From: Chloroflexota bacterium
GTDB taxonomy: Bacteria > Chloroflexota > Anaerolineae > UBA4142 > SHND01
Assembly: GCA_029778615.1 (NCBI GenBank)
Contig: JAKOPZ010000180.1
Span: forward strand, 1 to 64,000
Direction: 5' to 3'
Length of the DNA stretch: 64,000 bases
Position 1 is the first letter of the stretch. Each line of letters begins with the position of its first letter. This document shows, in pieces, positions 20 to 57,607 of the stretch. Under the pieces are notes generated by a model. It searched no databases, had not been told where the DNA came from, and saw nothing but the letters and a program-made list of their open reading frames with translations. The position numbers were made by a program, and so were the translations under genes.

Positions 20-68
20 ATTCTGCGATTCGCTATTTGCTATCTGCCATTGGCTATTGGCTCTTGGC
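20..68. repeat. Heptad array 1 (degenerate 7-bp units)
   Basis: Units in 7-bp register read attcgct, atttgct, atctgcc, attggct, attggct, cttggcg. The array covers the 3' end of the response regulator gene and supplies its last codons (KSQ) and its TAG stop. It belongs to the family of junction arrays described in the findings. Confidence 0.75.
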
Positions 69-2362: not shown

Positions 2363-4717
2363 TTATGTTTGTGGCTTGCCCGCAAAGTCCACATCACATA
2401 CGCCGGCGAGACACGCCAACTCTTGCGCCGCCGTCGTTAAATCTTCTTCTTCGTACCGATACAATTTGCTAAAATCAATCGCGGGAAAATGCGCTTTGAG
2501 TTTTTCGTACTCCCCCGCGTCAATTTCGTGATACGGCATTTGGTCATACATTGCATCAAACGCGGGGAGGAACGTGATGCCGCCGAGATAATCAACGTGT
2601 TCCCACACCCACTTCATCAAATCCAAAACTTCGTGCGGCTGGTACGTAATCGTCACGCTCGGATTGTGTTCCGTCCAATTCAATTTGTTTTGCAGCCAGT
2701 ACTCGCATTGTTGAATCGCGGTGCGGTCTTGGCGCGTAATCGCGCCGTCCGGTGATTTCACCGGAAAATGAATGACGTACGTATTCGCGTCTTCAGGCGT
2801 TTGTCCATTTTCGGGGTCCATCGGCGCGCCCGCGTCGCGCATCACTTTGTAAATTGGCGAATGGGTGGCGACGCGCACATTGCGAATGTAATACGGCGAC
2901 CAGCGCGCGTGAATGCCCGATGAGCAGTTCAATAACTGCGACGAATTGCCCGATGGTTTCACGCACGTTACGGAAACAGATTGATTGATATTCAATTGCG
3001 ATGCGACGACGCGATTCGTTTCAATCGCCACCTCGCGCAATGCGCGCTGCACATTCGCGTCTTGCGCGATGGGGCTGTCGAGTTGTCCGTTAATGTCCAC
3101 GCCGAGCAAGCGTTCTTCTTCACAATTGTCCTGCCATTGTTTCCGCAGCCCCGGGAAATGTGTAGCAAGCGATTGAATTGTGCCGATGATGGACGCGAGT
3201 TCCACTTTGTCTTGTAATGATTCGTACGTATCGCTTTGGCGCGCGACGGCGACAGAGAGATTGCAGAATTCGAATGGACGCAAAACAATTTCGCCGCACG
3301 GGTTCGTACCAAACTCGGCTTCTTTGCGCCGCGATGGGCGCATCGCAACCGCAGAATCGCGATTGAAAATGCCCGGCTCGCCGCGTCCGCCCTGCGCCAT
3401 GTCGAGGAAAAAGCGCGCAAACTCCAACTGTGTCAAACCGCCGCGCGGCAGCACTGCCGAATTGTTTGCGTTCCAACGCTGACTGTTCTCGCGTTCAAAG
3501 TCGCCGTCTTTCGCATGAAGCATTTCGTTATCGTCATAATCGAAAAGCGAAATCATCGCGGTCCGGCGCACGCCGCCGCTGACCGCCGCGTTGCCCACCG
3601 CGCACATAATGTCGTGTGCGTCGAGCGAACGCAGGAAGCTGCCTTGCCGCGCCAACACGCGCGTGCGAATAAATTCAAACATTTTGCGGAGCGGTTCGGG
3701 TCCCGACGCGCGTCCGCCTTTTGTTTTCAACGGCGCGCCCGCCGCACGCAACAGTCCTAAATCAAATTTCACATCGCCGCCGTCGAACCATGTCTCCAAA
3801 CCAAAACGCAGCGCGTCCGCCCAACCCTCCGCCGAATCTTCGACAAAGTACGTCGTCGGCGCTTTGCCTGCTTGGCGTTTCACGCGCGGGAAATTTTCCA
3901 CGTACTTGCGTTCGACCGAATAACCGACGCCACAGCCGCTCATCGAAATAATCAACGCCTCGACAAACGCGTCAATGCTTTCGACCGGCATGTACGAACA
4001 ATTGTAAATTGTGATGTTGTTGCGCCGCGCCGCCGCGCCCGCCATCGCCAAGAGACGCATCGAAGGCATCGCGCGCATTTCCAAAATACCGCGGCGAATC
4101 CGTTCGTATGTTTCGCGCGGCAGTCGTTCGCCCGCGAGCTCGTGCAAAAAATCTACCGAACGGTCAACGGTCTCAATCCATGTTTCGCGGCGTCCCAAAT
4201 CATAGTTGAACCGCGAATACTTGTCATAGAACTGGAATTTTTGGAGGTCGGTCGGAAAATAGTGGTCCGATTCCGCGAATGCGGCGCGCACGTTTTCAGG
4301 GATGGGACGCTCCGCGCGCAGTTTCGCATGTTCCGCGCGATAGAGAATGTAACGTTTTGCCGCTTCAAATTCGCCTGCCGCTTGCAGTACCATTTCCACA
4401 ATGTCCTGTACGTTTTCAACGGACGGCTGTTCATATTTCGCCGCGACGATGTTGCCCACTTGCTTGGCAAGGTCCGCGATAGGAATCACCGGTGCGCGTC
4501 CGAAACTCGCAAAACAGCGCGCCAACGCGTTTTCGATGCGCTCGATTTCAAATGGCATCACGCGTCCATCGCGTTTGACGATGCTCGTGGGCATCACAAT
4601 CGGCGCGTCCAAATCCAACGCGTTCGGTTTGTGTCCATTGCGGTTGGAATGTCCGTTGCCATTGCCATTTGTTTTTGACGAAAAGCGCGTGTCTACGCGC
4701 GGTTGTGCGCTGCTCAT
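2363..4717 (-). CDS. nrdJ: Adenosylcobalamin-dependent ribonucleoside-triphosphate reductase (class II)
   Basis: This 784-aa enzyme reduces ribonucleotides to deoxyribonucleotides with a B12-generated thiyl radical. A Gly/Asn/His-rich N-terminal tail (about 1-40) precedes an ATP-cone allosteric domain (about 45-135, beginning IVKRDGRVMPFE). The catalytic barrel carries YNCSYMP, NPCGE (radical Cys and Glu), the second redox cysteine in FCNLSVAV and CVKPSG. The C-terminal shuttle pair is ACLAGVCD. Length and motifs fit the monomeric RTPR-type family better than large NrdA-like NrdJ. The ATG at 4717 is preferred because GGAGG lies 7 nt upstream; a start 15 nt earlier is possible. It is the next gene downstream of nrdR, beyond a terminator hairpin that may regulate it. 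Confidence 0.94.
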   Translation of the reverse strand: MSSAQPRVDTRFSSKTNGNGNGHSNRNGHKPNALDLDAPIVMPTSIVKRDGRVMPFEIERIENALARCFASFGRAPVIPIADLAKQVGNIVAAKYEQPSVENVQDIVEMVLQAAGEFEAAKRYILYRAEHAKLRAERPIPENVRAAFAESDHYFPTDLQKFQFYDKYSRFNYDLGRRETWIETVDRSVDFLHELAGERLPRETYERIRRGILEMRAMPSMRLLAMAGAAARRNNITIYNCSYMPVESIDAFVEALIISMSGCGVGYSVERKYVENFPRVKRQAGKAPTTYFVEDSAEGWADALRFGLETWFDGGDVKFDLGLLRAAGAPLKTKGGRASGPEPLRKMFEFIRTRVLARQGSFLRSLDAHDIMCAVGNAAVSGGVRRTAMISLFDYDDNEMLHAKDGDFERENSQRWNANNSAVLPRGGLTQLEFARFFLDMAQGGRGEPGIFNRDSAVAMRPSRRKEAEFGTNPCGEIVLRPFEFCNLSVAVARQSDTYESLQDKVELASIIGTIQSLATHFPGLRKQWQDNCEEERLLGVDINGQLDSPIAQDANVQRALREVAIETNRVVASQLNINQSVSVTCVKPSGNSSQLLNCSSGIHARWSPYYIRNVRVATHSPIYKVMRDAGAPMDPENGQTPEDANTYVIHFPVKSPDGAITRQDRTAIQQCEYWLQNKLNWTEHNPSVTITYQPHEVLDLMKWVWEHVDYLGGITFLPAFDAMYDQMPYHEIDAGEYEKLKAHFPAIDFSKLYRYEEEDLTTAAQELACLAGVCDVDFAGKPQT

Positions 4718-4857: not shown

Positions 4858-4990
4858 GACCTGAACCGAAATAAAGCCGCGCGCGCGAATCATCGGTGTG
4901 AGCGCTGTAACGGTGAAACAGCAGAGTTGCAAGCTCGCAACGTGTTTAAGGAGAAATACACCAGAGGAAGGAAAAATTCGCGGCTCTTGC

Positions 4991-5064
4991 ATTTCCGATT
5001 TAAGATTTCCGATTTCAGATTGAAAATTTTCGTCCACGCATCCAATCTTTAATCTCGAATCTCT
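4991..5064. repeat. Heptad array 2
   Basis: Two runs keep a 7-bp step: atttccg, atttaag, atttccg, atttcag, attgaaa (4991-5025) and aatcttt, aatctcg, aatctct (5044-5064). The second run reaches the TAG stop of nrdR. Confidence 0.7.
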
Positions 5065-5551
5065 ACATCAACTTCATCTGCGACTTGGCTTCTTGTTCGC
5101 GTTCTTTGCGGTCACGCAAACGTTGAATCTCTGCCTGCAAGCTTTCCAAATCGGCAAAGCGGCGATACACGGACGCAAAACGCACATATGCCACATCGTC
5201 GAGCGTGCGCAAGCGGTCCATCACCATCTGCCCAATGCGCTGCGAGTCCACTTCGGAACGTCCGAGCGTATGCAATTGCGCTTCGATGTCGTCTACAATC
5301 GCTTCAATCGCTTGCATCGGCACGGGACGTTTCGCGCACGCGCGCGTGATGCCGCTCAATAATTTTTGTCGGTCAAACGCTTCGCGTCGTCCGTCTTGCT
5401 TGATGACCATCAGCGAAGTTTGCGCGACCCGTTCGTAGGTTGTAAAACGATGCCCGCATTTTTGGCACTCGCGGCGACGCCGAATCGCGTCTTCGGATTC
5501 GCGAGTGTCAATGACCTTGCTATCTTCTTCGGTGCAGTACGGACAGCGCAT
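5063..5551 (-). CDS. nrdR: Transcriptional repressor NrdR
   Basis: This 162-aa NrdR senses (d)ATP and represses ribonucleotide reductase genes. The N-terminal zinc ribbon has its four cysteines in MRCPYC and CQKCGHRF. An ATP-cone domain (about 47-137) begins [16 protein letters not shown]. The charged C-terminal tail (about 138-162) is slightly longer than the core family. Two NrdR-box-like sequences lie just upstream of its own start, pointing to autoregulation. The reductase gene nrdJ is next downstream on the same strand. The stop codon lies in the final unit of a heptad array. Confidence 0.96.
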
Positions 5552-6817: not shown

Positions 6818-6904
6818 CCGCCGGTTTCCGCCGCACTATCACTTGCTTGTTCACACAGACGCCCGGTGTGTTTCGGCGAGTGCAGAGCGAGCGGTTCGAA
6901 CTTT

Positions 6905-6960
6905 AATCTCTCGTCTCGAATCTCTAATCTCCAAGACCGGAGACTAGAGATTGGAGAGCT
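6905..6960. repeat. Heptad array 3 with fold-back
   Basis: Units aatctct, cgtctcg, aatctct, aatctcc, aagaccg, gagacta, gagattg, gagagct keep a 7-bp step. The two halves are complementary (ctctaatctcc against ggagactagag, 10 of 11). The array abuts the ftsZ stop codon. Confidence 0.75.
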
Positions 6961-8107
6961 AACCGCGCTTTCTCAAAAATGCGGGGATGTCCAAATCTTC
7001 ACGGTCAAATTGGCGCACCGGGAAATCAATCGTTTTCTTGCCCGGAGCCGCGACCACGTTTCCTGTCGCGATGCCCGCGCCCGTACCGGGCACACGTTTC
7101 GCTTGCGCTTGGAATCCTGTGGCAATCACCGTGATACGCACTTCGTCCTTCATTTCAGGATTGATGACTGCGCCGAAAATCAAATTCACTTCCGCGTCGG
7201 CAACCCGCCGGACAATTTCCGCTGCTTCGTACACTTCGTGCAACGTCAAATCTTCGCCGCCCGTCACATTGAACAAAACGCCGCGCGCGCCATCAATGCT
7301 CACGTCGAGCAGCGGCGACTTGATTGCCATCTCTGCCGCCGCGACCGCGCGATTTTCGCCGCTGCCGCGTCCGACTGCCATCAATGCCGCGCCGCCTTCG
7401 CCCATAATTGTTTTCACATCGGCAAAGTCCAAGTTGATCAAACCGGGCACCGTAATCAATTCGCTGATGCCCTGAATGCCTTGCCGCAACACATCATCTG
7501 CCAAACGGAACGCGGATTGCAGCGATGCCTTTTTATCAACAATATCGAGCAGGCGGTCATTGGGAATAATGATGAGCGTGTCAACGTTATCTTTCAAACG
7601 ATTCAACGCTTCATCGGCAACCTTTTTGCGTTTTGCGCCTTCGAACATGAACGGCTTGGTGACAACGCCGATGGTGAGCGAACCCATATCGCGCGCGATT
7701 TTCGCAATGACCGGCGCGGCACCGGAACCGGTACCGCCGCCCATACCCGCCGTAATAAAAACCATGTCCGCGCCTTTAATGGCTTCGCGGATTTCGTCCG
7801 ACGTTTCTTCGGCAGACTTCATGCCGCGTTCGGGGTCACCCCCCGCGCCCAAGCCGCGCGTTAATTTGTCGCCAATGCGAATTTTCGCTTGCGCTTGCGA
7901 ATGAATCAATGCTTGCGCGTCCGTGTTAACGGCAATAAAGTCCACGCCGCGCAGACCTTCCACAATCATTCGATTCACCGCATTCGTGCCGCCGCCGCCG
8001 ACGCCAACAACTTTGATTGCGGCAAAATTCTCGAATCCGTTAAAAAGGGGTTCGGGTCGCTTTTGCGGAACTGGGGGACGGGGTGGATTGAGGGAATTTC
8101 GCTCCAT
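6959..8107 (-). CDS. ftsZ: Cell division GTPase FtsZ
   Basis: This 382-aa FtsZ polymerises into the cytokinetic ring. A 30-residue N-terminal tail precedes the nucleotide-binding core, with [13 protein letters not shown] near 35-47, the tubulin signature GGGTGSG at 123-129 and NDRLLDIV near 203. The T7-like region is around [16 protein letters not shown]. The linker is short, and the conserved C-terminal peptide [12 protein letters not shown] binds FtsA or other tethers. The ATG at 8107 has GAGAGG 8 nt upstream. It is the last gene of the cluster and has a consensus promoter of its own. Confidence 0.98.
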
Positions 8108-9771: not shown

Positions 9772-9838
9772 GACGGCGGACGAAAGACGGCAGACGACCG
9801 AATCAAGATTCGCCGTTCGTCGTTCGTCATTTCGTCTG
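9772..9838. repeat. Heptad array 4 with fold-back
   Basis: Strict 7-bp units: gacggcg, gacgaaa, gacggca, gacgacc, gaatcaa, gattcgc, cgttcgt, cgttcgt, then catttcgtctgc. The right part is roughly the reverse complement of the left, around gaatcaagattc. It overlaps the ftsQ stop and supplies its final QTK. Confidence 0.85.
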
Positions 9839-11902: not shown

Positions 11903-11944
11903 CGTTATTCGTTGTGCGCTGCTGGTTATTCGTTGTTCGCTCCG
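11903..11944. repeat. Heptad array 5
   Basis: Six strict units: cgttatt, cgttgtg, cgctgct, ggttatt, cgttgtt, cgctccg. It encodes the last residues (ANNE) and TAA stop of MurB and fills the gap to ddl. Confidence 0.8.
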
Positions 11945-13254
11945 GATTGTTCGCCGACGATTTGGATTTCGAGTTCCAATTCCACCTTGAATTTTTCGCG
12001 CACGCGCGCTTGCACCAGCTCAATCAACTGCATCACATCCCGCGCGGTGCCGCCTCCCAAATTTACAAAAAAATTTCCATGAACCATTGAAACTTGCGCC
12101 TTTCCAATTCGCGTTCCCTTTAACCCCGCCGCTTCAATCAAACGTCCCGCGTAATCACCCGGCGGATTTTTGAACATGGAACCCACGCTCGGTTCCGTCG
12201 GCTGGGTGCGGCGCCGATGTTCGGTATATTGGTTCATCCGCGCAATGCAATGCGTTGCATCATCGCGTTCCAGTTCAAATTCCGCGCGCAGCACCACAAA
12301 TTTGTTGGAATGTTTTTTCAAAAAACTCGAACGATATTCGTATTGCAATTCCTCGCGCGTCCACCAACGCATAGTCTCTGCGTGCCAAAGTAGGTCGCTT
12401 TCATCTTGCGTTGCCGCGATTTCAATCGCCGCGACATCCAAAATTTCCGCGCGCACCAAATTGTCACTCAACGCGCCGCCGTGCGCGCCGGCGTTCGTCA
12501 CCACTGCCGCGCCGATTGTCGCGGGTACGCCAATCGCCCATTCAAGCCCGCGCCACCCTTGCCGCGCCAGCCGATTCGCCAAGCCCGGCAGCGATGCGCC
12601 GCTGTCAACAATCACGCGTAACCTTTCGCCGCTTTCTTCCCTTTCGCGGTGTTCGCCAGTTTCGCGGTGTTCGCTTGTTTCGCGGTGTTCGCCAGTTTCG
12701 CGGTGTTCGCTTGTTTCGCGGTGTTCGCCAGTTTCGCGGTGTTCGCCAGTTTCGCGGTGTTCGCCAGTTTCGCGGTGTTCGCTTGTTTCGCGGTGTTCGC
12801 CAGTTTCGCGGTGTTCGCTTGTTTCGCGGTGTTCGCCAGTTTCGCGGTTTTCGCTAGTTTCGCGGTGTTCGCCAGTTTCGCGGTTTTCGCTAGTTTCGCG
12901 GTTTTCGCTAGTTTCGCGGTTTTCGCTAGTTTCGCGGTTTTCGCTAGTTTCGCGGTGTTCGCCAGTTTCGCGGTGTTCGCCAGTTTCGCGGTTTTCGCTA
13001 GTTTCGCGGTTTTCGTGTACCACGATTTCATCCGCGTGATTTTCAATCACCATGCCGCGCATTCCCGCGTCACTTGCAAGAATGTTCGAGCCGTTGCCGA
13101 GTATGAAAATTTCAAGGTGCTGTTGCCGCGCCCACTTGACCGCTTGTATCAATTCGTCGCGCGAATCTACGCGCACAAAATAATCTGCCGGTCCGCCGAT
13201 GCGCAAGGTCGTATGACGCGCCAGCGGTTCATTCCGCAAAATTTTTTCAAGCAT
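11926..13254 (-). CDS. murB: UDP-N-acetylenolpyruvoylglucosamine reductase with a large repeat insertion
   Basis: MurB reduces UDP-GlcNAc-enolpyruvate to UDP-MurNAc with FAD and NADPH. The FAD-binding motifs TTLRIGGPADYF and LGNGSNILASD (about 15-62) are followed by a 120-residue insertion of 20 six-residue units, ET(G/S)E(H/N)R, at residues 84-203. The enzyme then resumes with VDSGASLPGLANRLA, GVPATIGAAVVTNAGAHGG, YRSSFLK, the catalytic serine in GSMFKNPPGDYAG, and the final glutamate region LELEIQIVGE. Without the insertion the protein would be about 320 aa, normal for MurB. Its ATG follows the upstream TGA by 1 nt. The last residues come from a heptad array. All key residues are present, so it is probably functional. 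Confidence 0.94.
   Translation of the reverse strand: MLEKILRNEPLARHTTLRIGGPADYFVRVDSRDELIQAVKWARQQHLEIFILGNGSNILASDAGMRGMVIENHADEIVVHENRETSENRETGEHRETGEHRETSENRETSENRETSENRETSENRETGEHRETSENRETGEHRETSEHRETGEHRETSEHRETGEHRETGEHRETGEHRETSEHRETGEHRETSEHRETGEHREREESGERLRVIVDSGASLPGLANRLARQGWRGLEWAIGVPATIGAAVVTNAGAHGGALSDNLVRAEILDVAAIEIAATQDESDLLWHAETMRWWTREELQYEYRSSFLKKHSNKFVVLRAEFELERDDATHCIARMNQYTEHRRRTQPTEPSVGSMFKNPPGDYAGRLIEAAGLKGTRIGKAQVSMVHGNFFVNLGGGTARDVMQLIELVQARVREKFKVELELEIQIVGEQSGANNE
12646..13005. repeat. 18-bp minisatellite, 20 in-frame units, inside murB
   Basis: Twenty full copies of an 18-bp unit, with partial copies at both edges. On the plus strand there are three main variants: cggtgttcgccagtttcg, cggtgttcgcttgtttcg and cggttttcgctagtttcg. 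Translated in the murB frame they give ETGEHR, ETSEHR and ETSENR. The unit length is a multiple of three, so copy changes preserve the frame. The array lacks stops in several frames and creates misleading ORFs on both strands. Confidence 0.97.
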
Positions 13255-24215: not shown

Positions 24216-24220
24216 TCGCT

Positions 24221-24298
24221 AAACAAACGACGGGGGACAATGAACGCGGCAAGCGGCGTTCGTCGTTTGTCTCCCGTCTATCGTTATCATTTCGTCTG
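24221..24298. repeat. Heptad array 7 with fold-back
   Basis: The right half reads gttcgtc, gtttgtc, tcccgtc, tatcgtt, atcattt, cgtctgc in strict 7-bp steps. The left half (aaacgacgggggac…) is roughly its complement. It overlaps the stop of the ftsL-like gene and gives it the C-terminal QTK. Confidence 0.8.
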
Positions 24299-24829
24299 CG
24301 CGCTGGCGCGGTCCGAAAAATTTTCCAAGCCCAACAAAGCAAGCAGTTGTTCGAATGTGTTCGGGTCGTTTTCAAATGTTTGCGGCGCGGTCACTTGATT
24401 GCCTTGCGGCAAAAAAGCGGGCATCAATTCATTCGGCGGCGGTTGAATCCACGGCATGTCCGCATAGACAACATGTTTAGCCGGACCCAAACCCAACTTG
24501 CGCGCGCGCTGCTCAATCGCGGAGGGCGAAGCCAGCGCGGCGATTTCGTAGCGCAGCTGCGCGTTCTCGCGTTCCACTTGTTGGATTTTCAATTGCTTGA
24601 CGCGCAAATCGCGCGCAATCAGCGCCGCGTTCGACGCCTGCGCGAGATAAATCATCGCCACCAAAATAAACATGCCGAGTGCGAGCAATGCCACGCGCAT
24701 CATGCCAAAGGTCGGCATGTTGTCCCAACGCACGCGCAGATTTTTCTTGAACGCGCGAAATTCTTGGTTCCAATTCTCACGCCACTGTGCCAAATGTTTT
24801 TTCATTGCCTTGTGTAACCGTTTTTCCAT
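24287..24829 (-). CDS. ftsL: FtsL/DivIC-like septum formation protein
   Basis: The 180-aa protein has a long basic cytosolic N-terminus (about 1-42), one membrane helix (MMRVALLALGMFILVAMIYL, about 43-62) and a leucine-zipper-like coiled coil (about 65-100). A proline-rich tail (about 120-180) contains the FtsL-type IEQRARKLGL motif. This topology and the position between rsmH and ftsI identify it as the FtsL/DivIC component that bridges FtsQ and FtsI. The last residues QTK and the stop come from a heptad array. Confidence 0.85.
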   Translation of the reverse strand: MEKRLHKAMKKHLAQWRENWNQEFRAFKKNLRVRWDNMPTFGMMRVALLALGMFILVAMIYLAQASNAALIARDLRVKQLKIQQVERENAQLRYEIAALASPSAIEQRARKLGLGPAKHVVYADMPWIQPPPNELMPAFLPQGNQVTAPQTFENDPNTFEQLLALLGLENFSDRASAQTK

Positions 24830-24865
24830 CCCAAATCGCGAGGTGCGAATTACGCTGTCGCTTTT

Positions 24866-24914: not shown

Positions 24915-25773
24915 ACGCCACTCTTTCTGCCACGCGCAATTTTGCGCTGCGCGCCCGCGCGTTTTCGCGCGTTTGTTGATACGTCGGTTTGATTGGATGT
25001 TTGGTTAAATTTCTCCAGTGTTCATTCGCTTTGAAAAAATTTTTCACGATGCGGTCTTCGAGCGAATGAAAGGTAATGATAGCGACGCGTCCGCCCTGCC
25101 CGACGACATCTGCCAATTGCGGCAAAGTCATTTCCAGATTTTCGAGTTCATTGTTCACGACGATACGTAATGCTTGAAATGTTTTCGTCGCCGGATGAAT
25201 TTTGCCGTGCCGCCCCAGCGCGCGTTCGATAACGTTCGCGAGTTCTTGCGCGTTGTTGAGGGGACGATTCGCTACAATCCAGCGCGCGATTTTGCGTGAC
25301 GCGCGTTCTTCGCCATATTCGAAAATCAAGTCCGCGAGGTCGGCTTCATCCCATGCGTTGACAATATCCGACGCGGTGAGTTCGGTGCGGTCATCCATTC
25401 GCATATCCAGCGAGTGGCTCAAGAACGAAAAACCGCGTTCGAGATTCGCCAACTGCATCGAAGAAAGACCAAGGTCGAGCAGCACGCCATCGGCGGGAAT
25501 GAAATGATTTTCCACCGCGACTTTTTTGATTTGTGTAAAGTTCGAGCGAACTAAAATCGCGCGTTCCCCAAATGGAGCGAGTGTTGTACGCGCGATGTGT
25601 AATGCTGCGGGGTCACCGTCGAGCCCTAAAAGTTTTCCGTCCGGCGCGGTGACTTTTAAAATCGCTTCCGCATGTCCGCCTGCGCCCAGCGTGCCGTCAA
25701 CGTATTTGCCCCCCGCTTTCAATGCCAGCGCCTCGATGACCTCATTCAGCAGAACAGGAATGTGCGGCTTCAC
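24913..25773 (-). CDS. rsmH: 16S rRNA (cytosine1402-N4)-methyltransferase RsmH
   Basis: This 286-aa SAM-dependent enzyme methylates C1402 in the ribosomal P site. It opens HIPVLLNEVIEAL, followed by the SAM loop DGTLGAGGHAEAIL (about 25-38), LDLGLSSMQL, and near the end AIITFHSLEDRIVKNFFK. The start is GTG at 25773 and lies inside a cacgttt unit of a heptad array. No ribosome-binding site is obvious. It follows mraZ as in the standard cluster. Confidence 0.97.
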   Translation of the reverse strand: MKPHIPVLLNEVIEALALKAGGKYVDGTLGAGGHAEAILKVTAPDGKLLGLDGDPAALHIARTTLAPFGERAILVRSNFTQIKKVAVENHFIPADGVLLDLGLSSMQLANLERGFSFLSHSLDMRMDDRTELTASDIVNAWDEADLADLIFEYGEERASRKIARWIVANRPLNNAQELANVIERALGRHGKIHPATKTFQALRIVVNNELENLEMTLPQLADVVGQGGRVAIITFHSLEDRIVKNFFKANEHWRNLTKHPIKPTYQQTRENARARSAKLRVAERVA

Positions 25774-25791
25774 GTTTCACGTTTGGCAATT
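25771..25791. repeat. Heptad array 9 (short)
   Basis: Three units, cacgttt, cacgttt, ggcaatt, lie between mraZ and rsmH. Read on the minus strand the first unit supplies the GTG start of rsmH. Confidence 0.6.
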
Positions 25792-28092: not shown

Positions 28093-28587
28093 TCAACCTT
28101 CGGTTGATGATGAACCTGCGGAGACCGGTTTCGCGTTTTCGTTGGAGCGAATTCTATTCGCCCGCAGCACCACTGCCTTTTCAATCACCGCGCGCGTCCA
28201 CGACGGCAGAGGATACGCGTCCAAATCGTTTGGCTCAACCCATCGCGCGTCCATCACATCATCGCGCGCGCGCAATTCACCGCCGCGCCATTCCGCCCAA
28301 AAATCAATCAGCGCGTAATGAAAACGCACGCGTCCCGCGTCATCGCGCGCAATCAAATCCAACACGTCCACCAAATCGCGCAATTCAATTTCGCCGCCGC
28401 ATTCTTCGGCAAATTCGCGCCGTGCTGCGTCGCGCACCGTTTCGCCCACTTCTACTGCCCCGCCGGGAATGCTCCACTCGCCGCGACGCGGTTCTTTGCC
28501 GCGTTGAATCAACAACACCGCGTCATTTTGAAAACAGACCACGCCGACACCGGGAATCGGAAAAGAGGGATATTCGCGCGAATTCAT
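28093..28587 (-). CDS. Nudix hydrolase
   Basis: The 164-aa protein carries a complete Nudix box, GGAVEVGETVRDAARREFAEECG (about residues 42-64), fitting G-x5-E-x7-R-E-U-x-E-E-x-G-U. The N-terminus (GVGVVCFQNDAVLLIQRGKEP) and the following RFHYALIDFWAEW suggest an ADP-ribose or NTP pyrophosphatase of the MutT-like type. The substrate cannot be told. It is downstream of recJ, with a heptad array between them. Confidence 0.93.
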   Translation of the reverse strand: MNSREYPSFPIPGVGVVCFQNDAVLLIQRGKEPRRGEWSIPGGAVEVGETVRDAARREFAEECGGEIELRDLVDVLDLIARDDAGRVRFHYALIDFWAEWRGGELRARDDVMDARWVEPNDLDAYPLPSWTRAVIEKAVVLRANRIRSNENAKPVSAGSSSTEG

Positions 28588-28663
28588 TTTTGATTTAGGA
28601 TTTTCGATTTATGATTTTTGCGGGTCATTCTTTGCAAATCAAAAATCGCATATCATAAATCCG
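28588..28663. repeat. Heptad array 10 with fold-back
   Basis: Left units ttttgat, ttaggat, tttcgat, ttatgat, ttttgcg and right units aaatcaa, aaatcgc, atatcat, aaatccg each keep a 7-bp step and are complementary to one another across a 13-nt centre. The right arm supplies the TGA stop and last residues of recJ, so the mRNA end could fold into a long imperfect hairpin. Confidence 0.85.
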
Positions 28664-41141: not shown

Positions 41142-41915
41142 TTATTCCATTCGCTCAAACACAAATTGATTGCAACCCGTCCAACCGTTTGCGGGAATCA
41201 ACCGCATGCAACGAAAAGACTCTTTGCTCAGAGCGGCAATGATTTCATTTGCCGACGCGTATTCATACGGATAACCGCCGAGCCAATCGCGCAAATCATG
41301 TTCAAATTCCATCCCGCGCGATGGGTCGCTCTTGTACAACATTCTCACGCGCGCCCACATTGGAACGTATGTGCAAGCGAACAAGAAATTTTGTCCAATT
41401 GGCGGCAGCGCGTTGTAAGCACGTTTTAGTGCGTGCCAGAGTGGTGATGTCCAATGCCGATTGTAAATCGCAATAATGAAATATCCGCGCGGTTTGACCA
41501 AACGCATCGCATTTCCCATGGCACGTTTCATGTTGCCCGTATGATGCAACACACCCCAACTATGCACAATATCAAACGGCTCTTGGCTCGAAACAAATTG
41601 CTGCTCGAGAATAGAAGCGATCTGAAAGCGCGGCATTGCGATAGAAGGAAAAAAACGCGCCGTTAAGGTCAACGCGCGTTCACAATGAGGGTCCAGGTCA
41701 ATGCCTTCCGCGTGCGCGCCCGCCTCCGCCGCGAGGTATAGGGCGAGTCCTTGTCCAAAACCAACGTCCAAGAACGTTTTGTTCCGCAACGCGATGCCAC
41801 TCGTCAATTCTGCAAAATCGCGCCGCGCTTGTGCCACACGTTGCGCATTCAACGCGTGCTGCGCAAACGATTCCCAATTGCGTCCAAATGAAAACGCGCT
41901 CACAGGAGAAGACAT
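41142..41915 (-). CDS. Class I SAM-dependent methyltransferase
   Basis: The 257-aa protein begins with SFGRNWESFA, common in glycan-cluster methyltransferases. The SAM loop is FLDVGFGQGLALYLAAE (about 48-64), the acidic motif GIDLD, and VHSWGVLHHTGNMKRAM marks the active region. The C-terminal part has IAIYNRHWTSPLWHALKR. The ATG at 41915 overlaps the TAA of the GT4 gene upstream, and the stop lies 2 nt before the asnB start. The target is unknown. Confidence 0.9.
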   Translation of the reverse strand: MSSPVSAFSFGRNWESFAQHALNAQRVAQARRDFAELTSGIALRNKTFLDVGFGQGLALYLAAEAGAHAEGIDLDPHCERALTLTARFFPSIAMPRFQIASILEQQFVSSQEPFDIVHSWGVLHHTGNMKRAMGNAMRLVKPRGYFIIAIYNRHWTSPLWHALKRAYNALPPIGQNFLFACTYVPMWARVRMLYKSDPSRGMEFEHDLRDWLGGYPYEYASANEIIAALSKESFRCMRLIPANGWTGCNQFVFERME

Positions 41916-43108
41916 TATTGAGAAGTATCTGGAGATGTATACACAGATAGCCGACTCTTTGCGCTTGCTTTTTCATCTACTGAGGAAAACAACCTCAGGT
42001 ATTCATTTGCCACATTCTCCCACGCAAAACCATTGGCGCGTCCCCGTGACGCCCGCCCCATCGCCCGCGCAATGTTGCGATGCGTTGCCAAAAATTGCAA
42101 ATGCTTTGTGAGCGCATCCACATCCGCCCAATCAAACAACAAGCCGTTCACATTTTCTTGCACCAATTCTTTGGTGCCCGGTGTGCGCGTGACGACGAGC
42201 GGCAGACCCGCCGCCATCGCTTCAAGCGTTGCCACACTCATCCCTTCGTTGTACGACGCCAATACGAACACATGCGCGCGTGCGTACTGTTCTGCAATTT
42301 CTTGGCGCGGGACATAGCCAACAAAATTTACGCGCGCTGCAATTTCTAACTCGCGTGCGAGTTGTTCAATCGTCTCTTGCGCGTCGCCGGTTCCCACCAA
42401 ATCCAAAATGACATCAGTCCCCGCATCATTCAACCGTTTGACGGCTTGAATCAAGTGCTGCTGTCCCTTGCGTTCGATTAAACGCGCCACGCACAACAAG
42501 CGCAGCGCGCCGTCATCGGGAATCTGCGCGCGCTTGAACGCGTCCACATCCACCCCATTCGGGACAATGGTCGGCGTCACGCGCGCATCGGCGCGTTGAA
42601 TCATTTTCGCTTCGTCATCGCATTTTGCAATCACATGCGTCGCGCCGTGCCAGGTCGCGCGAAGGATGGGCGAAAGAATCGGATACAGCGCGCCATAGCG
42701 TTCTTCAAAACCGGGGATATCGGGACCGCAGACACGCACAAGGTAATTCAAGCCCGTCAGTTTCTTTAACGCCAATGCGACCGCGCCCGCCGGCACCGCG
42801 CTCCATGCAAATACAAAATCATATTTTTGCGCGCGCTGCAATTTCAACGCATACGGCAGCGCGCGCGCCGCATACACTAGCAATTCGCGATTCGACGAGT
42901 GATGCAGATTTTTGTTATTGACGGGAACAAAATGCAATTGCACACGCTCCGCAAATTGTTCGCGTTGATATTCCTTGCCGAGCGCAGAAGTAACCAAATC
43001 AATTTCCAAATTCGGCACGCGCGCCCACCGTGTCAACAATGCGCGATTCACCGTCCCCGTTCCACCACCGAGCGGCGGAAATTCATTGTTCAACATCAAA
43101 ATTCGCAT
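41915..43108 (-). CDS. GT4-family glycosyltransferase
   Basis: This 397-aa GT-B enzyme starts RILMLNNEFPPLGGGTGTVNRAL (glycine-rich acceptor loop). Its C-terminal domain has LLCVARLIERKGQQHLI and the E-x7-E motif YNEGMSVATLEAMAAGLP. The ATG at 43108 is chosen because it gives the family N-terminus. The frame extends 29 codons upstream only through a heptad array, giving a nonsense peptide. Confidence 0.92.
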   Translation of the reverse strand: MRILMLNNEFPPLGGGTGTVNRALLTRWARVPNLEIDLVTSALGKEYQREQFAERVQLHFVPVNNKNLHHSSNRELLVYAARALPYALKLQRAQKYDFVFAWSAVPAGAVALALKKLTGLNYLVRVCGPDIPGFEERYGALYPILSPILRATWHGATHVIAKCDDEAKMIQRADARVTPTIVPNGVDVDAFKRAQIPDDGALRLLCVARLIERKGQQHLIQAVKRLNDAGTDVILDLVGTGDAQETIEQLARELEIAARVNFVGYVPRQEIAEQYARAHVFVLASYNEGMSVATLEAMAAGLPLVVTRTPGTKELVQENVNGLLFDWADVDALTKHLQFLATHRNIARAMGRASRGRANGFAWENVANEYLRLFSSVDEKASAKSRLSVYTSPDTSQ

Positions 43109-43118
43109 AGCGCGTCGA

Positions 43119-43181
43119 GACTGGAGATTCGAGATTGACGTTTCAAATTTCACGTTTGACGTTTCACGTTTTACGAATGAC
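43119..43181. repeat. Heptad array 11 (nine units)
   Basis: The clearest array: gactgga, gattcga, gattgac, gtttcaa, atttcac, gtttgac, gtttcac, gttttac, gaatgac, with no slip in the 7-bp register. On the minus strand it supplies the RKT ending and TGA stop of the GT2 gene and fills the gap to the GT4 gene. Confidence 0.92.
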
Positions 43182-44273
43182 TTGTCGTACCACATACATC
43201 GGTCGGCGTTTCACCTCTTCAAAGATGCGCCCGACATATTCGCCAATGACGCCGATGGTTATGAGTTGAATGCCTGCGAGAAAAAAAATGGCGACGATGG
43301 TGGTGGGGAAACCCGGGGGCGATAAACCCCAAAACACTTTTTGGATTGTATAGATAATGGCGAGCAGAATCGAAATAATCGAGACACCAATCCCCATCAT
43401 CGAAATCACGCGCAGGGGCACGTAACTAAACGACACGAGTCCGTCGAGCGCGAGCGTAATGAGGCGTCCGTAACTGTATTTCGTTTCGCCTGCGCGACGC
43501 GCGGCGCGTTCATAGGGCAACCCCACTTGTTCTAGTCCCACCCAGCTGCGAATCCCACGCACAAAGCGATTGCGTTCGGGCATGTTGATTAACAAATCCA
43601 CAACACGCCGGTCCATGATGCAAAAATCGCCCGCGTCGAGGGGTATGTTGATGTTGGCGACGCGTTGCAGCAGCCGATAGAACGCGGCGTAACTCGCGCG
43701 TTTGAGCCAACTCTCTTTGCGCCGCGCGCGAATCGCGTACACCACATCGTTTCCTTCGCGCCATTTCGCGATGAATTGTCCCAGCACTTCGGGCGGGTCT
43801 TGCAAGTCCGCGTCCATCACAATTACGGCGCTCCCGCGCGCCTGGTCGAGACCCGCGCTGATGGCGGCTTGATGCCCAAAATTGCGCGCAAAGGTCAGCG
43901 CGGACACGCGCGCGTCGTTTTGCGCGAGCTGCGCGAGAATTTCCAAACTGCGGTCGCGGCTGCCATCGTCAATAAAAATGATTTCGAAATCGGGTTCCAC
44001 CTCTTCCAACGCACGCACGAGCCGCGCATACAACTCGGCGAGATTGTCTTGCTCATTGCAGACAGGAATGACCACCGAAACATTCGGACGGTTCAGCCCT
44101 TCCTGCACCGCGTTCGCGTTAGAGGATGCGGCGGCGCTGCCCATTGCGTGTGCGAGCGCGCGGCAAAATGCGAGCGCCGCTTCGGCATCCTGTGTAGGAA
44201 TCGTTTGCACCAAGGCGGCTGGCGCAGCCGCTTGTTCGCGCCGAGTGGTTTCGACAATCACGCCCGACATCAT
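43164..44273 (-). CDS. GT2 polyprenyl-phosphate glycosyltransferase (GtrB/DPM-like)
   Basis: The 369-aa protein has an Ala-rich N-terminal extension (about 1-62), then a GT-A domain: VSVVIPVCNEQDNLAELYARL, FIDDGSRDRSLEIL and MDADLQDPPEVL (DxD). Two C-terminal helices follow (about 292-315 and 325-348), typical of GtrB-like enzymes. These load a sugar onto undecaprenyl phosphate, producing the donor used by GT-C transferases such as the many encoded here. The RKT ending and stop come from a heptad array. Confidence 0.92.
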   Translation of the reverse strand: MMSGVIVETTRREQAAAPAALVQTIPTQDAEAALAFCRALAHAMGSAAASSNANAVQEGLNRPNVSVVIPVCNEQDNLAELYARLVRALEEVEPDFEIIFIDDGSRDRSLEILAQLAQNDARVSALTFARNFGHQAAISAGLDQARGSAVIVMDADLQDPPEVLGQFIAKWREGNDVVYAIRARRKESWLKRASYAAFYRLLQRVANINIPLDAGDFCIMDRRVVDLLINMPERNRFVRGIRSWVGLEQVGLPYERAARRAGETKYSYGRLITLALDGLVSFSYVPLRVISMMGIGVSIISILLAIIYTIQKVFWGLSPPGFPTTIVAIFFLAGIQLITIGVIGEYVGRIFEEVKRRPMYVVRQVIRKT

Positions 44274-45652: not shown

Positions 45653-47236
45653 CTATCGCCTGATTTCAAACAACGTCACCGGTCTGCCCAGTCCATCTTG
45701 TACCTGAGCGACAGGATTCAATCCCGTAATCGTCGCGCGTCCATCATACAAATCGCGCATGGTCAGCGGTTTGTCGAATTGGAGCACGAGATACCGCGCG
45801 TCAAATTGACGCGCCGCGTCAAAAATCGCGTCCACGCTTTCCGTCGGCAAATAAATCGAACGGCGCCCTGTCTGATTGATGAATGACGGCGGATCAATCG
45901 TGATAATGGGCGAATCGTTTGGCACACCGCGCGCGTCGAGTTCGCGGTCAATTGCGATGTACTCTATGTCGCGTTGATTCCACAGCGGACTCGATGCGTT
46001 CGCACTCGGCGGAATCCAGACGCCCGACGCATACAAATAGAGACTAAAAAAAATCGCCAGCGCGACCGCGCCCGCGCGGAAAAATTTTTGCGCCTGCGCG
46101 ATATTCCACTTTTTGCGGCGTTTGCCAAACCATGCAACCACCGCGTCCAAACCAGGCGGCACGGCGACCGCGCCAAAGGCGACCAGCGCGGCGGCGCTGT
46201 GAAGCATACTCCCGTGCGTCGCGGGAAACGTGAACACGAACGCCATCGCCAACACCAGCAGCGCGAGATAAATCAATGCCGCTTGCATTTCCACGCGCCC
46301 GCGCAGTTTCCAAAAACCGATGGCGGCGAACGGCGCGAGAAAAATTTGCCACACGCCAAAGAGGAGAACAAGAATTACAAAAACGAGCGCGTCGAATTTG
46401 GAGGCGAGAATATTGCCAATGCCCCATTCGAGATAGCGCGAAAACGTCAAACGTGAAACGTCGAACGAGAAAAATTCATCGTAATTCAAGAGCCACAACG
46501 TGCGCGTGCTACCGGGGGCAAAGAACGAACCAACAGTCAAATAGTTTCGGACGAGCCATGGAGCAAGCACCACCGCGAAACCGGCGAGTAGTGCCAAGAA
46601 CAAGGGAAATACGGGAAATGAAGGAATGATGCGGCGATTGAGCCAATACAGAATCGGTGCGACGAACAGAATCAGCAGCGCATCCGCGCGTGACAACTGC
46701 GACAAGCCGATAAAAATTCCTGCGATAAAGAATTTTTTCCAATCGCGAGTCATTGTTCCGAGCGCGAGAAACAAGAGCGCGAAATCGGTTGTCACCGCGA
46801 ACGGCGTGAAATTGTCGGGGCTGACCCAATAAATTGTATAAAAGCCGCTGAACGCAGTAAGCAAACCCGCCATCCATGCGTAATCGTCGCGCGCATACAT
46901 TCGGCGCGCAAGGTAAAACGCAAACAGCGGCGGAATGAGCGAAAGCAGAACAAACGGAATTTGCGCGGCGCGATACGAAATGCCCACGAGCGCCATCGAA
47001 ATGCCCGCGAGGAGCGAAGGGAGCGGCAGCCAATACAAATTGCTCGCTTGCGGAATTGTTTTTTGTTCTTCCAAATAATTCCACACCACATCTTGAACCA
47101 AGCCGCGCCCGCGCGCGAGATTTCCGCCAACATGCTGTGTGTACGACGCGTCCATATACCCGGCGCGTTCGAGCGGCAGCGCGGTGCACAGCCGGAATAA
47201 CAAGACAATCAGCGCCAAGAAAAAATATGCGCGCAT
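45653..47236 (-). CDS. GT-C-like polytopic glycosyltransferase with a heptad-array peptide
   Basis: The 527-aa protein has about eleven membrane helices. The first loop has YMDASYTQHVGGNLARG. Later come SPDNFTPFAVTTDFALLFLALG and LSRADALLILFVAPILYWL, the pattern seen in GT-C enzymes. The C-terminal ~110 residues form a soluble domain ending VTLFEIR. Around residues 255-266 the peptide FSFDVSRLTFSR is encoded by four 7-bp units (46445-46472), as if an array had been inserted in frame. Confidence 0.72.
   Translation of the reverse strand: MRAYFFLALIVLLFRLCTALPLERAGYMDASYTQHVGGNLARGRGLVQDVVWNYLEEQKTIPQASNLYWLPLPSLLAGISMALVGISYRAAQIPFVLLSLIPPLFAFYLARRMYARDDYAWMAGLLTAFSGFYTIYWVSPDNFTPFAVTTDFALLFLALGTMTRDWKKFFIAGIFIGLSQLSRADALLILFVAPILYWLNRRIIPSFPVFPLFLALLAGFAVVLAPWLVRNYLTVGSFFAPGSTRTLWLLNYDEFFSFDVSRLTFSRYLEWGIGNILASKFDALVFVILVLLFGVWQIFLAPFAAIGFWKLRGRVEMQAALIYLALLVLAMAFVFTFPATHGSMLHSAAALVAFGAVAVPPGLDAVVAWFGKRRKKWNIAQAQKFFRAGAVALAIFFSLYLYASGVWIPPSANASSPLWNQRDIEYIAIDRELDARGVPNDSPIITIDPPSFINQTGRRSIYLPTESVDAIFDAARQFDARYLVLQFDKPLTMRDLYDGRATITGLNPVAQVQDGLGRPVTLFEIRR
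46445..46472. repeat. Heptad array 12, inside a coding region
   Basis: Units cgtcaaa, cgtgaaa, cgtcgaa, cgagaaa, of the same wording as the junction arrays, sit in the middle of a glycosyltransferase gene. Confidence 0.75.
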
Positions 47237-54929: not shown

Positions 54930-56391
54930 AGTTGGTCTCTTGAACGCGCTGAAAGTGTTGGTCGAGCCGCGCGAGATTCGCGTGCGGTTGATTCAATGCT
55001 TGTGCCTCGTCAATCGCCGTTTGGTAAATTACAAACCACACGCGCGTTTTGCCGCGCACCGCTTGGTCAAAATCAATCGGATACAATTCCATCGCCGCCT
55101 GCGATGCGGGCGCGAACGTATCATTGTCCGATTGCGGCGGGTCGGCGAGAAATACCTGCGGGAGCGCGCGGTCGTACAGGTGCATGGGCAAGAACGCGAG
55201 TTTGTTGTCATGCAAAATCACATCGCCCTCGCGCCGCTGTGCGCGCAAGAACGCATCCGCTTCCACATACGGCGCGCGCCGCCATTCCCCATACGCAGAA
55301 TAATAAAAGGGCAGCAGCGCGCTCGCGAAAAGGAGCGCAAACGCGGCGAGTCCAATTTGAAACACACGCGGCGCGCGCGAGGCAACGAACGCGAGCAAAA
55401 TCCCATACATCAGTGCGGATGCCATCGCGCCGCGCGGGACAAAGACGGGACGAATCAGAAACGAGAGAATGAACAACAGAATCGGAGGAACGAGTGCAGA
55501 GGTGACAACAAGCCCCAACAGGGAAAATTTTTTGGTACGCGCGATTTTGAACAATTGCCAGACGACGAGAATCAAAATTAACACCGCCACAAATAGCGCC
55601 AACGCGATAAGGGGGGGGGGAAGCGGCAGGTATGTAGTGAACACCAACAGCCACTGCACCACGTCGAGCAAACCGGGCGTTTGCGTCCAAAACGCGCGCT
55701 GAATTTTCTCCAACTGGGTTGGAACGTAAAACAACCACGGTGTAAATAAAAGCGCCCCGCCAAGTTGCGCCAAAATCAAACGCCCTTGCACGCGCCATGC
55801 GCGTTGGAGCAAAAAATAAATGTTTCCCGCCAGCAACGAAACGAATGCGAGATTGTGGGAATACAACGCAATCGCCGTGCCGAGCGCGACGAGTGCAAGT
55901 CCCCAACGGTTTTCCAATCGCATCACGCCATACCAATTCATCAGCACGCCCAACGCGAGCAGCGTGTACATGCGCAATTCCTGCGCGTGATAAATTTGAA
56001 ACGGCATTAACGCGACGAGAAAGATTGCCCACTCTGCCGCGCGTCTGCCGAACGCGCGCTTGGCAATCACATACACAAACGCCAATCCCAACAATGACAA
56101 ACTCACCGGCAACATTCGCATTGCCAGTGGAGTTTGTCCGACGAAATTCATCCACGCGGACAACAACAAATAATAACCCGGCGGCATCGTGTCCGCCGCC
56201 GTTCCCGATGCAATTGCCGCCGGTCCGCGTTCTGCGAGCAGCACGCTGAACGCGTCGTCGTACCACAACGGACGCGTTTCAATCACAATGAGCCGCAGCG
56301 CGAATGCCAAGAGCAGGATTGCGACAATGCGCGCATAACGCGAATCAAGTGACTTGATCGGAAAGGGGTTGGTGCGTGAAACGTGAAACAT
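54892..56391 (-). CDS. GT39-type membrane glycosyltransferase
   Basis: The 499-aa protein has the GT39 first-loop motif TRPLWYDDAFSVLLAERG (about 40-58), TMPPGYYLLLSAWMNF, and the family helix HAQELRMYTLLALGVL. It ends in a soluble domain with NLARLDQHFQRVQETNYGDLRILLY. The ATG at 56391 lies inside heptad array 13, so the first residues (MFHVSRT) are array-encoded. It overlaps the upstream gene by 47 nt. A run of ten G/C bases at 55611-55620 encodes a PPP in a membrane loop. Confidence 0.82.
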   Translation of the reverse strand: MFHVSRTNPFPIKSLDSRYARIVAILLLAFALRLIVIETRPLWYDDAFSVLLAERGPAAIASGTAADTMPPGYYLLLSAWMNFVGQTPLAMRMLPVSLSLLGLAFVYVIAKRAFGRRAAEWAIFLVALMPFQIYHAQELRMYTLLALGVLMNWYGVMRLENRWGLALVALGTAIALYSHNLAFVSLLAGNIYFLLQRAWRVQGRLILAQLGGALLFTPWLFYVPTQLEKIQRAFWTQTPGLLDVVQWLLVFTTYLPLPPPLIALALFVAVLILILVVWQLFKIARTKKFSLLGLVVTSALVPPILLFILSFLIRPVFVPRGAMASALMYGILLAFVASRAPRVFQIGLAAFALLFASALLPFYYSAYGEWRRAPYVEADAFLRAQRREGDVILHDNKLAFLPMHLYDRALPQVFLADPPQSDNDTFAPASQAAMELYPIDFDQAVRGKTRVWFVIYQTAIDEAQALNQPHANLARLDQHFQRVQETNYGDLRILLYTAR

Positions 56392-57607
56392 CAAGCGTCA
56401 AGGCGAAAAACGCAAACAGTGTGAACATTGGCAGAATTGTCGTTACGACAACGGCTTCTTGATTTCCTTGCAGAAAATTCAAAAAAACAATCCACGGGAC
56501 CAAGAGCAAAAAACACACAGACAGAAATAAAATTGCGCGCCGTTTTTGGACGAGCCATTTGCCAAACCACGCGAACCAAAAAATAAACAAGAGCACCTGG
56601 TCCGGCGTGCCGATTCTGCCCGCCATCAACGTCGTTACCAATGCGACGAATCCGAGCGTTGGTTGAAACGCGTACCAAGTGCGGGAACGATTTTTCCAGA
56701 CGAGCCCAATCATGCCGCTAACGAGTGCGGCGCTCGCAAAATAGAAGGCAAGAGCTGCCGGTAACGGCGGCAAGAGCAATTTGAAAAAAGTTTCGAGCGG
56801 CGGACCCACAGGCGCGTACTGCGCGTAATTTCGCAGTCCGTTCAAGAAATCCGTCAGCCAGGTTGGCACGAGCAGAAACGACGAGACAATCAAAAGCATC
56901 AACGTTGACAGCGCGCTCCACACCACGCGGCGTCTGCCGTTCATCCAGCACCAAAACAGAATCACGGGCAGTAACAAAATGACGGGCTGTGGTTTTGCCG
57001 ACGCCAGCGCGAGCAAAATTCCGGCAGTTGTGTCATTCCCGCGCGCGAGGGCAAGCGCTGCCCACGCGACGAACGCAAACGCAAGCAGCGCGTATTGTCC
57101 CAGAAAAATTCCACGCACCGATGGATAAAACAAAAACACGCCAAGCAAGATGGAAGCGAGCACAAGCGGCGACCACGTGATTCGATTCACCACAGCCAAT
57201 GCCAACGCGCCGGCAACCACTCCCACCACCAGCAGCGCCATCCACAACGCTTGGGCAAGCGCGTACGGAAACGCCGTGAACGGCGCGGCAAGATACGCCG
57301 CATACAACGGATACGCGAACGCAACCTGGTCCTCGTCCGGGCGCGCGAGGCGTCCATACATGCCCAATTGAATTTCACGCGTCACCTTTTCCGCATACGG
57401 ATTTTCGCCGCGCCAGAACAACGCGCGCGCACCGACCCAACGCGAATAAAAATCATTCGCGCCCGGCGCGTTCCGCGTCAAGCCCGTGTAAATGCCGAAC
57501 GCGAGCAGTGAGTAGATTAACCCAACCACGCCGACGACGAATAGCGCACGATGAACAGAGCCCGTTTGAGGTTTGACGTTTGAGACGTTGACGTTATTTG
57601 ATTTCAT
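56345..57607 (-). CDS. GT87 (DUF2029)-type membrane glycosyltransferase
   Basis: The 420-aa protein has about ten helices. The first loop has ANDFYSRWVGARALFWRGENPY, followed by AFAYPLYAAYLAAPF and FLGQYALLAFAFVAWAALA. These are typical of GT87 polyprenyl-mannose-dependent mannosyltransferases; the sugar here is inferred at best. Its first ~15 residues (MKSNNVNVSNVKPQTG) are encoded by heptad array 14, and its tail contains LDVSRFTHQPLS from array 13. No alternative start is seen downstream, so the array start may really be used. Confidence 0.8.
   Translation of the reverse strand: MKSNNVNVSNVKPQTGSVHRALFVVGVVGLIYSLLAFGIYTGLTRNAPGANDFYSRWVGARALFWRGENPYAEKVTREIQLGMYGRLARPDEDQVAFAYPLYAAYLAAPFTAFPYALAQALWMALLVVGVVAGALALAVVNRITWSPLVLASILLGVFLFYPSVRGIFLGQYALLAFAFVAWAALALARGNDTTAGILLALASAKPQPVILLLPVILFWCWMNGRRRVVWSALSTLMLLIVSSFLLVPTWLTDFLNGLRNYAQYAPVGPPLETFFKLLLPPLPAALAFYFASAALVSGMIGLVWKNRSRTWYAFQPTLGFVALVTTLMAGRIGTPDQVLLFIFWFAWFGKWLVQKRRAILFLSVCFLLLVPWIVFLNFLQGNQEAVVVTTILPMFTLFAFFALTLDVSRFTHQPLSDQVT
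56372..56406. repeat. Heptad array 13
   Basis: Units gtgcgtg, aaacgtg, aaacatc, aagcgtc, aaggcga in strict register lie where the GT87 and GT39 genes overlap. The array gives the ATG of one and part of the tail of the other. Confidence 0.75.
57565..57607. repeat. Heptad array 14
   Basis: Units gtttgag, gtttgac, gtttgag, acgttga, cgttatt, tgatttc. Read on the minus strand the array holds the start codon and N-terminus of the GT87 gene and the stop codon of the 680-aa gene. Confidence 0.85.

Follow-up and report, generated by a model that had tools for sequence, protein, structure and literature searches.

Heptad arrays of an Anaerolineae genus appear mostly to abut, and only rarely to supply, ancestral protein ends

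Degenerate tandem arrays of seven-base units are present in excess in the draft genome of a Chloroflexota bacterium, where they are concentrated at gene boundaries in preferred orientations, often form inverted pairs, close reading frames, and adjoin protein termini that are largely conserved among congeners. The picture as a whole is read, with a probability of roughly 0.78, as one of intercistronic heptad arrays of multiple families, often inverted and of fast turnover, which would be held by purifying selection at mostly ancestral gene ends. The window, the whole stretch of 64,000 nucleotides that was analysed, represents one contig of a 372-contig, 6.0-Mb draft genome, whose nearest named relatives are Anaerolineae/Chloroflexi MAGs. 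Nearly all genes at issue are located on its minus strand, and Pfam confirmed RsmH, MraZ, DivIC/FtsL-like, FtsQ, FtsZ, NrdR, RecJ, GT2, GT4, GT87 and PMT_2-type (GT39-like) genes among them. Array statistics were derived from 825 kb of the own genome and 0.1-0.6 Mb per relative, with gene calls from a simple in-house finder, the start positions of which are approximate. The named genes were compared with same-genus orthologues in five genomes, while 815 reciprocal best pairs yielded a genus-wide set of 34 array-bearing ends with an array-free orthologue.

The arrays described in an earlier note on this DNA are real, as Tandem Repeats Finder and lag scans detected degenerate arrays at or touching the sites it had named, together with a repeat excess at period 7 and its multiples far above that at other periods. 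At equal threshold, 115 lag-7 segments were found in the 825 kb of the own genome, while the other short lags tested gave 0-23; the genome total would thus be over a hundred and probably several hundred arrays. The GTTTSACGTTTSACG motif, with at most one mismatch allowed, has 238 copies genome-wide versus 5 for the reversed control. Its count in same-genus genomes ranges from 19 to 1169, a roughly 60-fold spread, and the array motif is nearly absent from most other families of the class. Units of the AATCTCC/AGTCTCC type account for about one third of the own arrays and AAACGTS for about 13%, the mix in the relative G001 being different, and the commonest units (AATCTCC, ACTGGAG and AAACGTC) contain no G-run of three. 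Moreover, one orthologous 3' end can bear different unit families in different species. Alongside the heptads, a smaller excess of period-8 segments was observed (23 in the 825 kb; 6 with stops, 13 intergenic), and unusually long, near-perfect GTTTSACG arrays were encountered in G001 (contig C20, ~3841-3932; contig C64, ~24618-24849) and G000 (contig C117, ~45906-46018).

The 115 arrays are distributed unevenly relative to genes: intergenic sequence holds 45, a stop is included in 29 and a start in 15 (3 of them belong to both groups), and 29 lie inside genes, whereas random placement would put only ~3.6 over stops and ~98 inside coding sequence. Classified by gap type, 77 arrays are situated in tandem gaps, 25 inside genes, 7 in divergent and 4 in convergent gaps, and the genes flanked include the housekeeping genes ftsZ, recJ and rsmH, which bears on a comparison with phase-variable contingency repeats, whose copy-number changes switch a surface gene. 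Purine-rich arrays prevail near stops (33/41 in the own genome, 23/31 in G001) and are scarce near starts (5/40 and 9/30, respectively), before which the arrays are pyrimidine-rich. All three frames of a given strand are closed by 17-28% of the arrays versus 4-5% of length-matched spacer, about 4-5 times as often, which bears out the earlier proposal that a unit length of seven closes frames; its companion suggestion, that arrays are tolerated at gene ends, also found support. Sense-strand stops occur at 0.023 in arrays within coding sequence versus 0.049 on the other strand, while tandem-gap arrays of the own genome displayed no general excess of sense stops (29 vs 22 arrays).

These observations are consistent with a mechanism in which arrays within coding sequence would be purged by purifying selection, since each 7-bp unit shifts the frame and stop triplets recur in every frame; what remains would therefore be arrays that directly adjoin an existing gene end or run a few nucleotides into it. 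The arrays mainly occupy the short spacers of co-directional genes, frequently as a pair of inverted arms in the order stop, arm, loop, complementary arm, start, and the transcript could form an intercistronic stem-loop with a putative role as an mRNA 3' or intercistronic hairpin. They would expand and give way to others rapidly, with slippage or unequal exchange in steps of 7 bp as the probable cause. The termini are mostly ancestral, with a minority rewritten by arrays.

The earlier note had argued, differently, that arrays insert across gene ends, supply new starts and stops and set the protein terminus. The features of the window that bear on this proposal are as follows.

57564-57600, minus strand: heptad array of AAACSTC units, coding GT87 residues ~5-15 (NVNVSNVKPQT); single arm without hairpin, fold z +0.5.
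57605-57607, minus strand: GT87 start ATG, within Tyr-Glu codons of the upstream gene and outside the heptads.
57594-57596, minus strand: TAA stop of the 57594-59636 gene (ending VYEIK), at the ancestral position; the end is YEIK in G003 and YVLR in G005.
56374-56403, minus strand: heptad array at the GT87 3' end and GT39 5' end, containing the GT39 start ATG (56389-56391).
25769-25784, minus strand: two heptads at the rsmH start, a GTG (25771-25773) whose homologous codon in array-free relatives is ATG.
43141-43175, minus strand: AAACGTC/AAACGTG array at the GT2 end (RKT, stop 43164-43166); RKT in G004, where an array is present, and RKS in array-free G005.
25-68, minus strand: GCCAATA-type array over the RR stop (54-56); the KSQ/KNQ end is kept in congeners with other arrays or none.
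28583-28655, minus strand: inverted heptads GATTTTTG / CAAAAATC fill the recJ-nudix gap and give a stem-loop that separates stop from start, z -3.3.
6890-6961, minus strand: ftsZ 3' stem-loop with heptad arms AATCTCT / AGAGATT, z -2.9.
24216-24289, minus strand: ftsL-pbp gap stem-loop, z -3.8; FtsL ends AQTK like its relatives.
4980-5065, minus strand: nrdR 3' inverted heptads; KLM/KLI end conserved, fold z -0.5.
9804-9831, minus strand: CGAACGA heptads over the FtsQ stop; tip KQTK versus KK/KSK/KTK in relatives, possibly array-coded.
11905-11953, minus strand: 21-bp (3x7) repeat over the MurB stop; tail QSGANNE absent from most relatives, likely array-coded.

As a general rule, the setting of termini by arrays is refuted. 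Among the 34 array-bearing C-termini, 23 end at the same position as the array-free orthologue and share two or more of its last three residues, 6 are partial and 5 have nothing in common with it; a divergent case is that of a G003 gene ending EMRETRNGKRET, the G000 orthologue of which ends EMRET. Identity of the last three residues amounts to 0.554 in array/no-array pairs versus 0.463 in no-array pairs, and is hence not below background, and start codons are not significantly in array register (z 1.5). For most examples put forward in the earlier note, array-free orthologues carry the same terminal residues, a finding that the note itself had named as contrary to its claim. Across four species RR ends KSQ three times and KNQ once, the site carrying one of three different arrays or lacking one; the RKT/RKS end of GT2 persists whether an array is present or not, NrdR terminates in MKLM or MKLI among congeners, the C-terminus of RsmH is kept, and its start falls at a homologous (A/G)TG in array-free relatives. 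Since they are common to array-free congeners, the KSQ, FtsL QTK and RKT endings, the NrdR and RsmH stops, most of the RecJ end and the RsmH start are considered array-adjacent rather than array-derived. RecJ, for which the earlier note had named an ADL ending, keeps R(I/L/V)(A/S)(D/E) among congeners and differs in the last residue or two. The argument that two proteins ending in QTK reveal the array as the author of the terminus was discarded, because FtsL AQTK is ancestral and recurs in two relatives without an array call at that end, G004 and G002; the FtsQ tip KQTK, by contrast, is not shared with relatives.

The proposal keeps some ground in the 5 of 34 ends without any likeness to their array-free orthologue, in the median 9 nt of coding sequence covered by stop-containing arrays, and in a minority of termini of the window: the GT87 N-tail and the GT39 start are array-coded, and the MurB tail (the ANNE end of the earlier note) and the FtsQ tip probably are. 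Nevertheless, with 23 of 34 ends conserved, it is regarded as improbable as the main explanation, and the arrays appear in most cases to abut ancestral protein ends and only rarely to supply them.

The GT87 site illustrates both sides. The earlier note had assigned the start codon, the first 15 residues of GT87 and the TAA stop of the neighbouring gene to the array. On the minus strand, 57607-57565 reads ATGAAATCAAATAACGTCAACGTCTCAAACGTCAAACCTCAAAC, the GT87 reading frame begins at 57607, and the called heptad core spans 57564-57584. Residues ~5-15 proved to be heptad-derived, whereas the ATG and TAA reside in or at codons of the upstream gene, outside the core; the same ATG is found in G003, where an AAACGTG array follows it, and in array-free G005, while G002 has an ATGA overlap. 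The array thus moved into the opening codons of a GT87 gene whose start already overlapped its neighbour, and brought neither the ATG nor the TAA. The claim that the GT39 ATG is array-supplied was upheld, since this codon lies within the heptads CTTGATG TTTCACG TTTCACG with no in-frame alternative nearby. In relatives GT39 starts at an ATG overlapping the GT87 stop; that ancestral overlap start is lost here, and the ATG in the heptad variant CTTGATG is the only usable start of the 500-aa protein, which makes it the single convincing example of a start codon born from an array. The predicted array-coded N-tail peptides are MKSNNVNVSNVK (GT87) and MFHVSR (GT39).

Several neighbouring repeats were recorded in addition. 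The murB gene (11926-13254) harbors a 374-bp, 21-copy array of an 18-bp unit (window 12642-13015), which encodes ~21 in-frame hexapeptides ((S/G)E(N/H)RET) in the N-terminal half of MurB, and the best MurB alignments to congeners span only the residues after it. The longest reading frame of the GT4 gene (41915-43195) begins in an array (MWYDKSFVKRETSNVKFET..), while homology places the start further in, at the ATG at 43108 (MRILMLNNEFPP), an instance of an array causing a false N-terminal extension. In G002 (contig C29, locus L152), a tandem ~20-bp unit (GAGGGAACGAAACGCGTGGG) is located directly upstream of rsmH.

The register of the arrays at stops was also considered. Independent of array calling, lag-7 identity near stops reaches the downstream level from ~4 nt before the stop, with little at other lags. 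The raw profile had shown an edge at -6, which partly reflected the base composition imposed by the fixed stop; with position-specific composition controlled, the edge moved to -4. Position -4 is where a tandem duplication of 7 bp first becomes possible without altering either coding sequence or stop. In 50 genes whose array starts at most 4 nt from the stop, the last 7 nt match the array register at 0.50 versus 0.37 when permuted (z 6.8), and the 4 coding nucleotides alone also match (z 5.5). Array and gene end therefore share sequence more often than mere abutting predicts, which implies either that some ends are array-coded or that arrays were seeded from the ends.

According to the latter possibility, arrays are born by a 7-bp tandem duplication of a gene's last bases and stop, followed by downstream expansion; such duplications are among the few frame-shifting ones that leave the protein unchanged, and the lag-7 rise at -4 and the register match point the same way. 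In addition, the RR orthologues of G000 and G001 bear different arrays, each opening with the last codons and stop of its own gene, and array-free orthologues have a stop codon that agrees with the array unit (z 2.7, p 0.0015, n 21). Local birth alone does not predict the unit families that recur throughout the genome, however; part of the lag-7 signal, a weaker one, extends one further unit into the coding sequence, and in conserved-end genes the coding nucleotides of array-free orthologues do not match the array unit (z 0). Because the register match is weaker in the 21 conserved-end genes (0.422 vs 0.365, p 0.03) and genome-wide unit families coexist, the data suggest seeding at stops as a lead rather than a result: we hold such a birth to be rather unlikely overall, and the fuller version, in which arrays spread downstream from the stop and gain an inverted counterpart ahead of the next start, to be more doubtful still. 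The reading of turnover at ancestral gene ends, held in place by selection, remains preferred.

Gaps with two arrays contain inverted copies of one family (unit similarity 0.77 vs 0.54 permuted, z 11), while none of 39 direct pairs reached a 6/7 unit match. These inverted arms, together with the stronger folding of 3' ends with arrays than of those without (z -3.2 vs -2.1), would be expected of REP- or terminator-like functional hairpins kept for transcript stability or termination, and at three sites of the window (recJ-nudix, ftsZ and ftsL-pbp) the predicted stem-loop is better than that of shuffled sequence. At the GT87, GT2, ftsQ and nrdR sites, however, folding does not exceed that of shuffles, the GT87 and GT2 arrays being single-arm. 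The unit order of the two arms is unmatched, unit by unit (z -1.5); the arms are therefore two facing arrays of one family, not precisely maintained stems. Since families and presence also turn over between species, the conserved palindrome and maintained stem of REP/BIME-like elements were not found, and the reading of the arrays as such functional hairpins is considered unlikely. Turnover between mostly ancestral gene ends accordingly stays the favoured account.

Very similar arrays are known from other bacteria, although no description of them in Anaerolineae was located in the open-access literature. The degenerate GGGAATC / GGGGA(C/T)T heptamers of Xanthomonas and Nostoc are intergenic, mostly between co-directional genes and rare in coding sequence; they lie in sense orientation within 50 bp of stops, including stop overlap, and in antisense orientation upstream of starts, and differ between close species (PMC4692102). 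The present arrays share the period of 7, the co-directional gaps, the rarity in coding sequence and the opposite orientation after stops and before starts, but comprise many families, mostly without G-runs and often as inverted pairs per gap, in contrast with one G-rich, quadruplex-forming family. In marine Beggiatoaceae, TAACTGA repeats are found near gene ends, 13 sets overlap stop codons, and repeat-coded residues occur at protein ends; forward repeats close all three frames and so must sit at the ends of reading frames (PMC4679880), by which the frame-closing argument is already published. Those repeats consist of a single near-exact unit, mostly just upstream of starts, whereas the arrays reported here are degenerate, multi-family and flank both stops and starts, and none of their unit families is a TAACTGA unit just upstream of starts. 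As cited in PMC4692102 and PMC4679880, Calothrix carries several families of heptanucleotide STRRs per genome, and heptamers rank first among long simple repeats in most of the surveyed genomes; in those citations they are described as repeats, without the gene-end register or paired arms seen here. Within the same phylum, Chloroflexus aurantiacus possesses (GATAGRA)n heptamer satellites (PMC6749651), one family that the part of that report drawn on here presents as satellites without a gene-end relation.

With a roughly 60-fold range of array load and a gene order largely conserved at the locus, the genus constitutes a natural experiment in which birth, orientation and loss of arrays may be read junction by junction. 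It also calls for caution in annotation, as gene-adjacent arrays can create false N-terminal extensions together with a few real short tails.
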